A stretch of DNA of 64,000 nucleotides from Candidatus Kapaibacterium sp. (GTDB taxonomy: Bacteria; Bacteroidota; Ignavibacteria; Kapaibacteriales; UBA2268). Shown piece after piece: positions 33,851 through 60,202 of the stretch. Positions within the stretch are counted from its first letter, which is position 1. Each line of letters starts with the position of its first letter. The notes beneath the pieces are model-generated. The model did not search any database. It was not told where the DNA came from and saw only the letters and a list, made by a program, of their open reading frames with translations. Location: positions 124,001 through 188,000 of the forward strand of contig JAOABA010000049.1 of assembly GCA_026418625.1 (NCBI GenBank), given 5' to 3'. A program made the position numbers and the translations under genes.

Positions 33851-36223
33851 CTAAACAATTATAAATTTTCCTATAAATTTCCCGAATTTAATAAAATATA
33901 ATCCTGCAGGTAAAGCGGAAATATCAATCCTTATAATATTTGCTTGATCCCCTCTAAAGACAGTCATCACGCATTCTCCGAATATGTTGTAAATTTTAAT
34001 TTCATTTGTAGAGAAAGCTCCCAGATCTGCCTCAACATTATTACTTATTTCTAAATAATCAGATGCTGGATTAGGAAAGATTGTTGGATTACTGTAATTA
34101 ATGTGAGTAAAATCAATATCGTTTACTGAATCATAAATTTTCCATGCGTGTAAAACTATTACTCCTTCAAGCTCCTCGATAAATTCAGTTCCGTAAAGTA
34201 TATTATTTATTGGGTCATAAGTAGCATCACGTAAGATACGGTCTTTGCCAAAAAAACCAATATTTTCAAGTCTTAAAGCAGCATAAGGTTGTGGTTCGTA
34301 TGGTTTAATATTACCTTTTGCCACTTCAGCAAGCTCATCAACATCATAAAATACTATCATTGGTATGACATTATTTGCTCTCCACCCTTTACCGTTGGGG
34401 TCAGTTTCGGAAAAATCCGGATAAGGTATATCATATAAAACCCAGTCATGATGCATATTTTCACCAGTATAACCATACCAATTTTTACCTAATCCTTTAT
34501 TACCATAAAGAGCAATAGCTTTTTGTGAGCCAACTTGAAGCCAAAAACCAGCCCTAAACCAATCTTTGTGATTATAACATATAAAAGAATTTGGGAATTT
34601 ATATCCATCAGAATTTTCAACGCTTCCGTATTGTAGAAGTGCCAGTTCTGATAATTCAGAATTTGGAGTAGGTGGGTTATAGTGATTAACTGGTGCCACA
34701 GCATATAGGGTTGGTCCTAAACCACTTAATCCCCCCTCACGACTTCTTCCGGTTATAATTGTTCTATTATTAGTGTTAATTTTAGCCCAATCTTCAGGAA
34801 CCTTGAATAAATAATCATTTAATGCAGCATCTATTGGAGGAGAATCAGCTTTACCAATATACCAAGCTCCATATTTTTGACTAGATGATAAATTTTTTGC
34901 AAAACAAAATGACAATGATGCAGTTTTTTCTCCACCAACTTGGTAATAGTAACCCCAACTACTGTATAAAGCAAAATCATCTGTCCCATCTATTGGAATA
35001 CAAGTCAAACCCATAATCCAGTTATCTACATAACTCCAATTATTAACATTTGATGGTCTAATATTTGTAAAATTTTGAATTATATAAGGTTCGTTTAAAT
35101 CAGACAGATTAGAAGATAACTTAAAAGATGGTAAAGAAAATTCAGCAACAAAGTTGTCTTCTGGTGTATTAATATTTGAGATAAAAACAGAACCCGGAAA
35201 GCCATCCACCGCTCCTATACCGTTTTGTCCACCATCCCCATTTGGGTTATAAGCAATTCCCTCTCCTCCATAATTGATTGATTCAGGCATTTTTATTGCT
35301 CCCAAATATTTTAAATTATTTGGATTTATTAAATTATTTTTTCCCGTAAAATTATCTGTTTTAGTAGTAACAAAGTTTGATTTCGAGCTTTCATTACCAA
35401 AAGGATCAACCGCAGTTACTGAAAAAGTGTATGACTTTCCAGCCTCGAGTAAAGCAACAGTATAATTAGTATCCTTTGAATAGCCTTCAATCAAATCGCC
35501 ATTATATATAAAATAACCTGCAACAACCGTATTGTCTTTGGTTGGTTCCCAATTTAATTTAATTCTACTATGTGATTTTACCTCAGACTTTAGATTTTTG
35601 GGTATTTCAGGAGCAAGTGTGTCAGCATCAAATAATATTTCAATACGATCACAAATGAGATATTGTTTCATCTCATTATTACCCCATTCTATTGCTAAAT
35701 TAATATTGATAATGTTATATATTTTATCTGTTTTATGGACACCTTTGTTTTCAATATTAAAAACTGTTTTTGCGTTACTAAATGGTTCAATTATGCAATG
35801 TGTAAGACTGTAGTCTCCGAAATTTCTCATAGTAAACCAAGAACCACTGACTGGACCGCCATCTGGAATATCTGGATCGTCAAAACTGATTCGTGAAGAA
35901 AATGATATTGGTTCATTAAAATTATTATACCAAGTAACAACAACACGTTCACCTTTGGAAAAATTTCTATTTTTACCCTTAATCCCTCGAAAATCAGTTA
36001 AATCTCCAAAATTTGATGTTACATACACACCACCATTACCCAAATTTGTATAATTCTGATTAGAACTTAATAACACTTGGTTCCATCCATCAAGCTCGAA
36101 CGAATTTTGACTTGCTGTTGATCCAAAATCTATCAAAATTTTGCCTTGAGAAATAAATGGTAATGAATTGGTTAGTATTAGCAATAAAACTAATTTTAAC
36201 AAACTGAATAATTTTGTTTTCAT
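33851..36223 (-). CDS. T9SS-exported protein with fibronectin type III domain
   Basis: 790 residues. After the signal peptide, about 28-200 look like a beta-sandwich. A fibronectin type III domain lies at about 208-290 ('SHSRIKLNWEPTKDNTVVAG', 'LEAGKSYTFSVTAVD'). The large middle part (about 300-690) has propeller-like strands but no family I recognise. The end is a T9SS domain: 'FPNPASDYLEISNNVEADLG', 'EIKIYNIFGECVM', 'RIDISALPAGLYFIKFG'. That domain is closely similar to the one at the end of the serine hydrolase encoded at 37940-39274. Confidence 0.8.
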   Translation of the reverse strand: MKTKLFSLLKLVLLLILTNSLPFISQGKILIDFGSTASQNSFELDGWNQVLLSSNQNYTNLGNGGVYVTSNFGDLTDFRGIKGKNRNFSKGERVVVTWYNNFNEPISFSSRISFDDPDIPDGGPVSGSWFTMRNFGDYSLTHCIIEPFSNAKTVFNIENKGVHKTDKIYNIININLAIEWGNNEMKQYLICDRIEILFDADTLAPEIPKNLKSEVKSHSRIKLNWEPTKDNTVVAGYFIYNGDLIEGYSKDTNYTVALLEAGKSYTFSVTAVDPFGNESSKSNFVTTKTDNFTGKNNLINPNNLKYLGAIKMPESINYGGEGIAYNPNGDGGQNGIGAVDGFPGSVFISNINTPEDNFVAEFSLPSFKLSSNLSDLNEPYIIQNFTNIRPSNVNNWSYVDNWIMGLTCIPIDGTDDFALYSSWGYYYQVGGEKTASLSFCFAKNLSSSQKYGAWYIGKADSPPIDAALNDYLFKVPEDWAKINTNNRTIITGRSREGGLSGLGPTLYAVAPVNHYNPPTPNSELSELALLQYGSVENSDGYKFPNSFICYNHKDWFRAGFWLQVGSQKAIALYGNKGLGKNWYGYTGENMHHDWVLYDIPYPDFSETDPNGKGWRANNVIPMIVFYDVDELAEVAKGNIKPYEPQPYAALRLENIGFFGKDRILRDATYDPINNILYGTEFIEELEGVIVLHAWKIYDSVNDIDFTHINYSNPTIFPNPASDYLEISNNVEADLGAFSTNEIKIYNIFGECVMTVFRGDQANIIRIDISALPAGLYFIKFGKFIGKFIIV

Positions 36224-36531: not shown

Positions 36532-37653
36532 TTATTTTTTTACAAATAACTGACCAATATTATCGATTGTTAAATAATAAACCCCACTCGTTAAAGTAGA
36601 GATGTCTATTTTTATCGGTTGTTCGCATCTTGAAATAGGAACTTCATGAACAATTAAACATTGCCCTAAAATGTTGTGTATTTTAATTTGACGGGAATCA
36701 TCGTTGTAATTTAAAAAGTGATTTTTGGATATTTCAATGAATTCCGAAGCAGGATTTGGATACATAAAAAGCTGATTTTCTTTATTATCTGATTCGACAA
36801 AAGTTTCATTATCTTCCCAACCTACTAATTTAGCCCATAAATGCCAACTAGCTATTCCTTTCATAACACAGTTCAAGCTCTCCGAATGAGCACATTCTGA
36901 AACTAATTCACATATCTTAGCTAAAATATGGTCAGGATGAGATTGCAACCATTCAATCGCCCAATTTCCATATTCTCCACCGGGTTTCTGATAATTGCAT
37001 CCATCGTCTGCAAAAAATTCATCATAATTAACAGTCCCATCAGGGTCGTATTTCTCAATATCAGCAAAATCATATAGAATCTTATTGTTATTAATGCAAA
37101 ACTGTCTTATGTGGTTATTAGCTCTTTCAAGCGAGCCATTTGGTCCTTCTCCTTCAAGATGGCCAGTCATATAAACAAATTTTACTTTTGGATAGTCCTT
37201 TTCCAATTGATTCATTTTTGAAAGATAATGTGAATTTAAATCAACATCATTAACCTGTCCACACCAAGACCAGATAATAACATTACATTTAGGATTATTC
37301 TGTAAGTAATCCCGGGTTAAATCATCCCAACCGGGTTCTCCACAATCCCCATACAGAGTTCCATCTTCTTCTATTTTTAAATAACCCGGACCACCCTCAC
37401 TACTCCAATTAAACCGACCATCTTCAAAGTAAGACATCAAAGCATTCATACCGGTGATAAGTTGGCTCCCGTGAGAAGTATGTCCATAACCAATGTTTAA
37501 ATTATATTTGGCTTTACTGATGTAATTATTATTTAGTATTTTGCTCAAATCAACTGACTTATGGTTGATTATTATCGGTTTTTGATGTTGAGAGAAAAGA
37601 GCAGGGCAAACAAAAAGAAGGCAGATAGACAAAATGGCATTCAAAGTTTTCAT
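36532..37653 (-). CDS. T9SS-exported protein of unknown function (possible SGNH-like fold)
   Basis: 373 residues with a signal peptide (cleavage near 'ALFSQ'). The central part has 'NIGYGHTSHGSQLITGMNAL', 'NVIIWSWCGQVNDVD', 'VKFVYMTGHLEGEGPNGS' and 'FADIEKYDPDGT'. The order of a small Ser/His motif, a strand with 'WCGQ' and a 'TGH' motif is reminiscent of SGNH-type hydrolases, but I cannot confirm this. The C-terminus is a T9SS sorting domain ('YPNPASEFIEISKNH' to 'DNIGQLFVKK'). Flanked by other T9SS cargo genes on the same strand. Confidence 0.7.
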   Translation of the reverse strand: MKTLNAILSICLLFVCPALFSQHQKPIIINHKSVDLSKILNNNYISKAKYNLNIGYGHTSHGSQLITGMNALMSYFEDGRFNWSSEGGPGYLKIEEDGTLYGDCGEPGWDDLTRDYLQNNPKCNVIIWSWCGQVNDVDLNSHYLSKMNQLEKDYPKVKFVYMTGHLEGEGPNGSLERANNHIRQFCINNNKILYDFADIEKYDPDGTVNYDEFFADDGCNYQKPGGEYGNWAIEWLQSHPDHILAKICELVSECAHSESLNCVMKGIASWHLWAKLVGWEDNETFVESDNKENQLFMYPNPASEFIEISKNHFLNYNDDSRQIKIHNILGQCLIVHEVPISRCEQPIKIDISTLTSGVYYLTIDNIGQLFVKK

Positions 37654-37939: not shown

Positions 37940-39274
37940 TTATTTACACACTTTTAAAAAAGAAAATACCCTATCATCAAAAGAAATGTAATATAAACCA
38001 ACGGGTAAACTCGAAATATCAATCCTTTGTAAAGACACAGTATGCTGTGTCTCTACTGTAATCACACATTCTCCCAATATGTTGAAAATTTTGATTTCTT
38101 GAGTAGTAGAGACAGGTCTAAGGCCTGTCTCTACATTATTACTTATTTCAATGTAATCAGATGCTGGATTGGGAAAAACAACTAAACTATTTGCATTTTT
38201 CTCCTCTGCTAAATCTGTGGTTTGCATTATTTGGTTTAGATATCTCCAAATCTCATTACTGAAATTGGTAGAAATGAAAAACTGATTGTCAGGTCTTTCA
38301 CCCATACGAACCCAAATAAGTCCCTTACTGGGTGAAATGTTAAGGCATTGGCCATCCTTACCAAGCGCTGCATAAGTATCAAACGGAGCGTCAGGTATAA
38401 GCATCGTATTGAAAACCCTCGTGCTACCGGGTATCATACAGCTTTCTTTTCCATTTAACCACCATAAATAACCATAGGATTTGTTTAAATTCTGAGATGT
38501 ATTAATCATTTGATTAAGATATGTCTTATCCTTTATGATATTCTTATTTTCCCAAAATCCATTACTTGAAATAAGAATTCCAAACCTTGCCATAGATCTG
38601 GCATTGCTAAAATAAACGTTGTTAAATCCTAATTTAATCCAAGCACCGTTCATCCCAATCTGATTACGAATTTTTTGTGATGTATAAATATTATAATTCT
38701 GTCCTGTTGCTTTTTCTACAACTTTCTCCAGTAAAGTATAAGGAGCATTATGGTAATACCATTGTGTTCCTGCATCTGCTTTATATTTAAGGCACTCAGG
38801 ATTTGTGCAATCCAAATCCTCAACATTGTAATCCAAGCCTGTTGTCATAGTGAGTTGATGTAGCACTTTAATTAAATCTTCTTTTTCTTTTGGTAACGAA
38901 GTCCAACCCTCACCGAGATATTTAGAAGTTTTTTCATTTATGTCTATCAATCCTTCTTCCTGAGCTATTCCAACCAAGGTAGCAGTAAGTGTTTTTCCTG
39001 CAGAAGCCCAATACCATAAACTGTCTTTAGTAAATGTATCAAAATATTTTTCAAGAACAATTCTTCCATCTTTAAGCAAAATAAATGCTTTAGAGTTTTT
39101 TTCATTTAGATATTCATAAAAGTCATTTATTTTATTTTCATTCCAGCCGAGTTCGGTTGGGGTAATACTCTCCCAAAAATCGGTGTCAATAGGAGGATAA
39201 TATGGAGTTTGAGAATGTATTGCCAAGATAAAATTTATCCAGATTAGTAATATAGTAAAAATTAAACTTTTCAT
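37940..39274 (-). CDS. Serine hydrolase (class C beta-lactamase fold) with T9SS sorting domain
   Basis: 444 residues with a signal peptide. The penicillin-binding fold is shown by Ser91-x-x-Lys94 ('WASAGKTLTATL') and Tyr174-x-Asn176 ('WYYHNAPYTLLE'). Such proteins are esterases or D-amino peptidases more often than true beta-lactamases. The end is a T9SS domain ('FPNPASDYIEISNNVETGLR', 'IFNILGECVI', 'RIDISSLPVGLYYI'). Two palindromic elements lie in frame within this domain (38029-38056 and 38106-38134) and encode its loop residues. Confidence 0.88.
   Translation of the reverse strand: MKSLIFTILLIWINFILAIHSQTPYYPPIDTDFWESITPTELGWNENKINDFYEYLNEKNSKAFILLKDGRIVLEKYFDTFTKDSLWYWASAGKTLTATLVGIAQEEGLIDINEKTSKYLGEGWTSLPKEKEDLIKVLHQLTMTTGLDYNVEDLDCTNPECLKYKADAGTQWYYHNAPYTLLEKVVEKATGQNYNIYTSQKIRNQIGMNGAWIKLGFNNVYFSNARSMARFGILISSNGFWENKNIIKDKTYLNQMINTSQNLNKSYGYLWWLNGKESCMIPGSTRVFNTMLIPDAPFDTYAALGKDGQCLNISPSKGLIWVRMGERPDNQFFISTNFSNEIWRYLNQIMQTTDLAEEKNANSLVVFPNPASDYIEISNNVETGLRPVSTTQEIKIFNILGECVITVETQHTVSLQRIDISSLPVGLYYISFDDRVFSFLKVCK
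38029..38056. repeat. Palindromic element inside coding sequence (loop 1 of T9SS domain)
   Basis: GTAAAGACACAG-TATG-CTGTGTCTCTAC: two 12-base arms with one mismatch around a 4-base centre. It is read in frame by the minus-strand serine hydrolase gene and encodes the loop 'VETQHTVSLQ'. It shares the GTAGAGACA-type outer arms with the second element 50 bases away. Confidence 0.75.
38106..38134. repeat. Palindromic element inside coding sequence (loop 2 of T9SS domain)
   Basis: GTAGAGACAGG-TCTAAGG-CCTGTCTCTAC: perfect 11-base arms. It encodes the loop 'VETGLRPVSTTQ'. The homologous 29 bases in the gene at 33851 (34008-34036) match at 21 of 29 positions but have lost the palindrome. Confidence 0.78.
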
Positions 39275-60163: not shown

Positions 60164-60202
60164 AAATAAGGGCTGTCAAAAAAATGACAGCCCTTATTTT
60201 AT
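60164..60202. terminator. Bidirectional rho-independent terminator
   Basis: Perfect stem AATAAGGGCTGTCA / TGACAGCCCTTATT around a six-A loop. T-runs lie on both sides when read on either strand, so it can end both the plus-strand caspase gene and the minus-strand tRNA-Ala/tRNA-Asp transcript. Confidence 0.85.

Follow-up and report, generated by a model that had tools for sequence, protein, structure and literature searches.

REP-like palindromes read in frame in the loops of T9SS sorting domains in a Candidatus Kapaibacterium genome

The window, the whole 64,000-nucleotide stretch of Candidatus Kapaibacterium sp. DNA that was analysed, carries on its minus strand a gene for a secreted protein with a beta-lactamase fold. 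The gene ends in a T9SS type A C-terminal sorting domain (CTD), within which two palindromes are read in frame. Two further CTDs of the window are given for comparison.

37940..39274, minus strand: gene of the beta-lactamase fold (PF00144 and PF18962), secreted, 444 aa, with the T9SS sorting domain at its end
37943..38188, minus strand: T9SS type A CTD containing both palindromes
38106..38134, minus strand: palindrome 1, 29 bp, double-foot GTAG REP type by its sequence, read in frame as VETGLRPVST, in CTD loop 1
38029..38056, minus strand: palindrome 2, 28 bp, double-foot GTAG REP by its sequence, slightly decayed, read in frame as VETQHTVSLQ, in the CTD loop-2 hairpin
33854..34081, minus strand: paralogous CTD without intact palindromes
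34008..34036, minus strand: decayed counterpart of palindrome 1, 21/29 bases, palindromy lost
36538..36762, minus strand: third CTD of the cluster, palindrome-free, an internal control

Por_Secre_tail (PF18962) matches residues 366-434 of the encoded protein (E 2.4e-11 for the whole protein), and the CTD scores 44.2 bits against a cut-off of 27. The AlphaFold model of the CTD, whose prediction drew on 32 CTDs from the same genome, comprises seven strands with a mean pLDDT of 85. This C-terminal match together with a predicted seven-strand beta fold is as expected of a T9SS type A CTD, and the PDB relatives of the domain include T9SS CTD entries, such as 8glj. In the model, palindrome 1 forms a flexible loop between strands 12-17 and 30-35, with the low confidence that loops usually give at residues 18-29. 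Palindrome 2 covers the turn that joins strands 41-47 and 53-57, together with a few strand residues. An earlier sequence-only reading had described both as surface loops, which, judging from the model, suits the 29-mer and is only approximate for the 28-mer.

The same reading had reported two in-frame palindromes 49 bp apart, which we could confirm. Palindrome 1 (GTAGAGACAGGTCTAAGGCCTGTCTCTAC) pairs at 13/14 positions around a single central base, while palindrome 2 (GTAAAGACACAGTATGCTGTGTCTCTAC) pairs at 12/14, and they are translated as ..NNVETGLRPVSTT.. and ..TVETQHTVSLQ.., respectively. The arms of both are of the GTAGAGAC type, and one foot of the 28-mer has decayed to GTAA. The bare octamer GTAGAGAC is not enriched in the window (17 matches at no more than one mismatch, 18.1 expected), so the argument rests on the whole palindromes. 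The count of 21 identical bases out of 29 between palindrome 1 and its counterpart in the paralogous CTD was reproduced. The claim that the two domains share their loop lengths held for loop 2, loop 1 of the paralog being one residue shorter than that of the window gene. Elsewhere in the window, only one other long palindrome lies within an ORF (ACAGCCCAAAACTTAAACTTTTGGGCTGT, 147-175, ORF 81-698), and a strong, terminator-like intergenic hairpin, AAATAAGGGCTGTC..GACAGCCCTTATTT, is found at 60164-60199.

Searching the genome for exact-arm palindromes of the form GTAGAGAC...GTCTCTAC, we found 10 copies, compared with 0 for a reversed-pattern control; the palindrome of the window is thus not a product of chance. 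Four of the copies lie in loops of intact CTDs, five in orphan 3' halves of CTDs with no upstream part of the gene present, and one at the relic of a RAYT gene. With mismatches allowed, three further sites of the 28-mer type appeared, among them the window's own 38029-38056. The copy at the relic (C19:50785-50810) and the decayed gene of the RAYT (TnpA-REP) transposase are separated by 136 bp; the gene contains a further decayed palindrome (ETGLRPI) and has another nearby. The assembly, which is 96% complete, contains no intact RAYT of the GTAGAGAC type, so the palindromes may no longer be mobile here.

REPs are short palindromes that move around bacterial genomes beside a dedicated transposase. 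We found the same palindromes in 15 of 40 genomes of the same order, mostly as ordinary intergenic repeats, and GTAGAGAC-type palindromes in 62 of 296 genomes sampled across the phylum. The copies of the relatives are mainly extragenic, whereas those of this genome, with one exception, lie in CTDs or CTD fragments. Among 15 RAYT loci tested in nine genomes, five had a palindrome within 300 bp (0.014 expected). Palindromes flank or sit within RAYT genes in G020, G032 and G034 (in G034, one lies inside the gene) and adjoin relics in G000 and G001. In the palindrome-carrying relatives G002, G012, G015 and G023, no RAYT of the GTAGAGAC type was detected. The RAYT ORFs gave matches to Y1_Tnp (PF01797), in some cases with scores under the gathering cut-off; the profile alone missed relevant RAYTs in several genomes, and a protein query recovered more.

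The RAYT of G020 displays the motifs PNHLH, LWQ and YIRNNP, where the published first motif is NH[IFV]H, and an in-frame decayed palindrome, RGANCSRGANHCVST, separates its HuH motif (PNHLH) from the WQ/YIRNNP region, in agreement with the published account of such genes (PMC6006769). All exact-arm copies have GTAG and complementary CTAC feet by construction of the search pattern. The stem interiors vary with their pairing kept: 27 two-sided changes were counted, compared with 6.3 in shuffles (score 0.269 vs 0.076), and the compensatory changes stand well above both shuffled and slid controls. Known REPs of TnpA-REP subclass 2.4, from Bacteroidetes and Cyanobacteria, are 'double-foot' elements (GTAG...CTAC) that flank tnpA-REP and occur in frame within it, and their transposases carry the motifs NH[IFV]H, WQ and YIxNNP (PMC6006769). 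In the E. coli system, GTAG is needed for cleavage by TnpA-REP (PMC8266576). On sequence grounds, the window palindromes match the double-foot GTAG REPs of this subclass.

Two sites in relatives deserve description. In the sister species, a RAYT remnant on G001:C38 (L093/L020) has three VETGLRPVS-type palindromes in or beside it and is the only site found in G001 with an exact-arm GTAGAGAC palindrome. In G015, GTAGAGACAGGTCTAAGACCTGTCTCTAC occurs four to five times near contig ends (G015:C67, L116, 93-474; G015:C155, L120, 53-670), mostly at intervals of 117-118 bp, forming a tandem array built on the REP.

The same two loops also host other palindromes. A second family, ATTCATCCGAT..ATCGGATGAAT, has 16 exact-arm copies, 14 of them in loop 2 of CTDs or in orphan halves, two at a RAYT and none elsewhere. 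On contig C14, these two copies are found in and immediately upstream of a RAYT that fits subclass 2.6 by its YIHQNP motif. This family (ATTCATCC..) is like the 'atypical structures' of subclass 2.6 (PMC6006769) in that it flanks and interrupts a YIHQNP-type RAYT, an assignment made on the YIHQNP motif alone; the remaining copies of the family are located in CTDs and pieces of CTDs. A second TnpA on the same contig (G000:C14, L014, 1402-1704; MPDHVH..YIKNQKEHH) fits subclass 1.2, and the CCCACGAATAAATTCGTGGG and AAACCATTAAAATGGTTT palindromes near it recur around the neighbouring RAYT.

Between near-identical flanks, loop 2 of this genome's CTDs accommodates alternative modules: the GTAGAGAC 28-mer, the 33-bp palindrome of the second family, ATTCATCCGATAACTCNGAGTTATCGGATGAAT, read as EKIHPITLSYRM, or a double hairpin, CCCCGGCACTTCGTGCCACCCCTCAAGAGGGG, translated as TPALRATPQEG. 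Loop 1 contains the 29-mer, an CATTCCTGC..GCAGGAATC palindrome (SFLRMQES) or ATCAACCCTACGGTTAACCATAGGGTTGAT. Kapabacteria/Ignavibacteria MAGs obtained with a CTD query carry other palindromes in the same loops, two of them GTAG-tagged (GTAGGGGCAATTCATGAATTGCCCCTAC and GTAGGGGCACATTGCAATGTGCCCCTAC). None of 17 control CTDs from other Bacteroidota and none of the 21 top-scoring PF18962 domains of order relatives had such palindromes, which makes the trait lineage-dependent rather than universal in the order. Contigs of JAGXRP01 (L159, L176), a MAG labelled Desulfobulbaceae, encode Kapabacteria-like T9SS sorting domains, probably through a binning error.

To quantify the concentration in CTDs, we took a census of palindromes with an arm score of at least 11 in a 390-kb sample of this genome centred on CTDs. 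It returned 13 long palindromes in 27.8 kb of CTD, against 4 in the 282.5 kb of coding DNA outside CTDs (2 of these 4 at a GC content of at least 0.3, one of them within the RAYT gene), with a further 38 in 75 kb of intergenic sequence. The density in CTDs thus exceeds that in other coding DNA by a factor of 33-66 and about equals that in intergenic DNA. The odds ratio is 33 and the Fisher p 4e-11 to 2e-12, and the MAG set gave 10 in 8.0 kb of CTD vs 2 in 66 kb (p 1e-8); since the CTD copies are paralogs, these p-values overstate the number of independent events and do not count them. Most CTDs of the genome have no long palindrome, the 13 being spread over roughly 116 sampled domains.

We then considered how the copies are related. 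The ortholog of the window gene in the sister species of the same genus (G001, 67% identical) has a CTD with neither palindrome. When the window gene is compared with paralogs on other contigs that bear palindromes, identity is 83-90% in palindrome 1, 93% (26/28) in palindrome 2, 61-67% between the palindromes, 43-52% in the remaining CTD and at random level upstream; part of this likeness between CTDs may be due to protein constraint. Among the intact CTDs with the palindrome cassette, identity is random upstream (0.33), rises to 0.79 in the middle and 0.84 in the tail, and the likeness runs past the stop codon; the five-prime half gives 0.41 ungapped, with uneven starts, and 0.61 when aligned. 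More than 20 orphan CTD 3' halves begin just after loop 1 and run through the stop codon, and many continue into a chain of palindromes (CCACTACTTTCAAGTAGTGG, AGATGTCCTACACC..GGTGTAGGACATCT and others). Upstream of loop 1, the orphan halves show no more than random identity (0.36), against 0.81 in the tail; these averages are approximate because a few segments are those of a neighbouring copy (the two C36 entries, for example, show one and the same segment, as do the two C17 entries) and one intact CTD is included.

Within one family, loop-2 copies have identical left and right junctions. Set beside generic CTDs and the ortholog, the loops differ by replacement or by only a few extra residues, with no clean 28-29 bp insertion; hence no base-exact empty site can be given, and none was found among these CTDs. 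The shared junctions and the dispersed orphan 3' halves with their downstream palindromes make copying of CTD segments likelier than repeated insertion. From the sequences compared, the simplest reading, and the more likely one, would be that each family was captured once, after which recombination or gene conversion copied the CTD segments.

These observations can be brought together in an account that we consider probable as a whole, in which RAYT-linked GTAG REPs were captured in CTD loops and then spread by segment copying. A RAYT of the subclass 2.4 type would once have been present in the lineage, leaving the relic with its palindromes on contig C19, and would have made the original insertions. 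The two variable loops of CTDs would have captured REPs of the GTAG family and of one or more further RAYT-linked families; being readable in frame there, these REPs may have done little harm. Their spread would have proceeded mainly through copying of sorting-domain segments, from loop 1 to beyond the stop codon, rather than through fresh transposition, with recombination or gene conversion placing these segments in other genes and in intergenic DNA. The suggestion that a mobile or gene-converted repeat was at work is supported by the further copies, the RAYT relic beside the copy outside CTDs, the RAYT-linked repeats of relatives and the copied CTD segments. As for its supposed domestication as protein loops, the repeat origin was borne out; retention for a protein function was not, as tolerance of palindrome-bearing loops in a variable region explains the data.

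Several other explanations have to be weighed. CTD loops 1 and 2 could be repeated landing sites of RAYTs, each copy being a separate event; the two loops do host several unrelated palindrome families, in this genome as in related MAGs, in-frame REPs are already known in RAYT genes (PMC6006769), and the palindromes are more alike (26/28 for palindrome 2) than the coding DNA between them (61-67%). However, independent insertions would not lead one to expect identical loop-2 junctions within a family, nor that flanking CTD and post-stop DNA are common to the copies as well, a combination that points to one capture per family and subsequent copying. We therefore regard separate insertion of every copy as rather unlikely, while the window pair may include one independent insertion event. 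It is less probable again that the mobile unit was itself a composite of loop-1 palindrome, CTD 3' half, stop codon and downstream palindrome chain. If so, single-strand chemistry of the RAYT type or REP-mediated recombination would insert the cassette at new places, the 3' ends of genes would gain a new export tag, the secretion signal itself would be a mobile module, and each orphan half would be a displaced tag or a spare one.

The palindromes could also be kept for a function in the nucleic acid, for example as an mRNA hairpin close to the 3' end that protects the transcript or ends transcription. The stop codon is indeed no more than about 200 bp away, the cassette CTDs have a further palindrome chain after it, and published REPs are mostly downstream of coding regions (PMC3733652). 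Yet most CTDs of the genome lack a long palindrome, both window copies contain mismatches, one is decayed in the paralog, and no match to an Rfam family was obtained, so that we find such a role improbable. A CRISPR-like or terminator element had been considered and was dropped, there being no array and the position being in frame. Ordinary CTD sequence whose codons are palindromic by accident would account for the in-frame loops and for encoded peptides that recur (VETQHAVSLQ, VETGLRPVST). But the palindromes are absent from other CTDs of the genome, from the sister ortholog and from the Bacteroidota controls, the same DNA is also found next to RAYT genes, away from CTDs, unrelated palindromes replace one another at one position, and the arms pair by compensatory change. 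Plain protein conservation or codon usage is refuted by the RAYT-linked non-coding copies, and we give it hardly any credence. Neither of the outcomes that would have spoken against a repeat origin, a genome free of further copies or the same bases in unrelated T9SS domains of other Bacteroidota, was encountered.

REPs are usually regarded as extragenic, with in-frame copies seen as scattered accidents. Literature searches, which covered T9SS with palindromic repeats and palindromes of Kapabacteria, brought up no earlier description of REPs gathered in a single protein domain or in T9SS signals, and their concentration in a secretion-signal domain appears to be new. Here, at least two RAYT-linked palindrome families of one genome reside mainly in a single protein domain, an export tag, which offers a natural series of cases in which to study the entry of REPs into coding DNA and their spread. 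This raises the question of whether repeat-driven copying of gene 3' ends passes secretion signals between genes.

In-frame REPs and REPs inside their own transposase gene have been described before (PMC3733652, PMC6006769), and GTAG repeats have been reported in Proteobacteria, Cyanobacteria, Chloroflexi and the PVC superphylum, but not in Bacteroidetes/Chlorobi (PMC3733652). The palindromes resemble Rickettsia palindromic elements (RPEs), with which they had been compared, in giving in-frame peptides, as RPEs do in many proteins. RPE-4 and RPE-6, however, correspond to CGTC-type repeats, apparently without a dedicated transposase (PMC3733652); here the feet are GTAG, the copies are RAYT-linked and they are confined to one domain family. 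The comparison thus remains an analogy, the REPs of TnpA-REP subclass 2.4 being closer. Like the intragenic GTAG and CGTC REPs (PMC3733652), the palindromes are short and in frame within protein genes, but those cases are spread over unrelated genes, whereas here several families share the same two loops of one domain type. The closest likeness is to subclass 2.4, or RAYT group 4 (PMC6006769), in the GTAG...CTAC feet, the long, perfectly paired stem and the position in or flanking RAYTs with NHxH, WQ and YIxNNP motifs; unlike those REPs, nearly all copies in this genome lie in T9SS CTDs or their fragments, and the RAYT is a relic.
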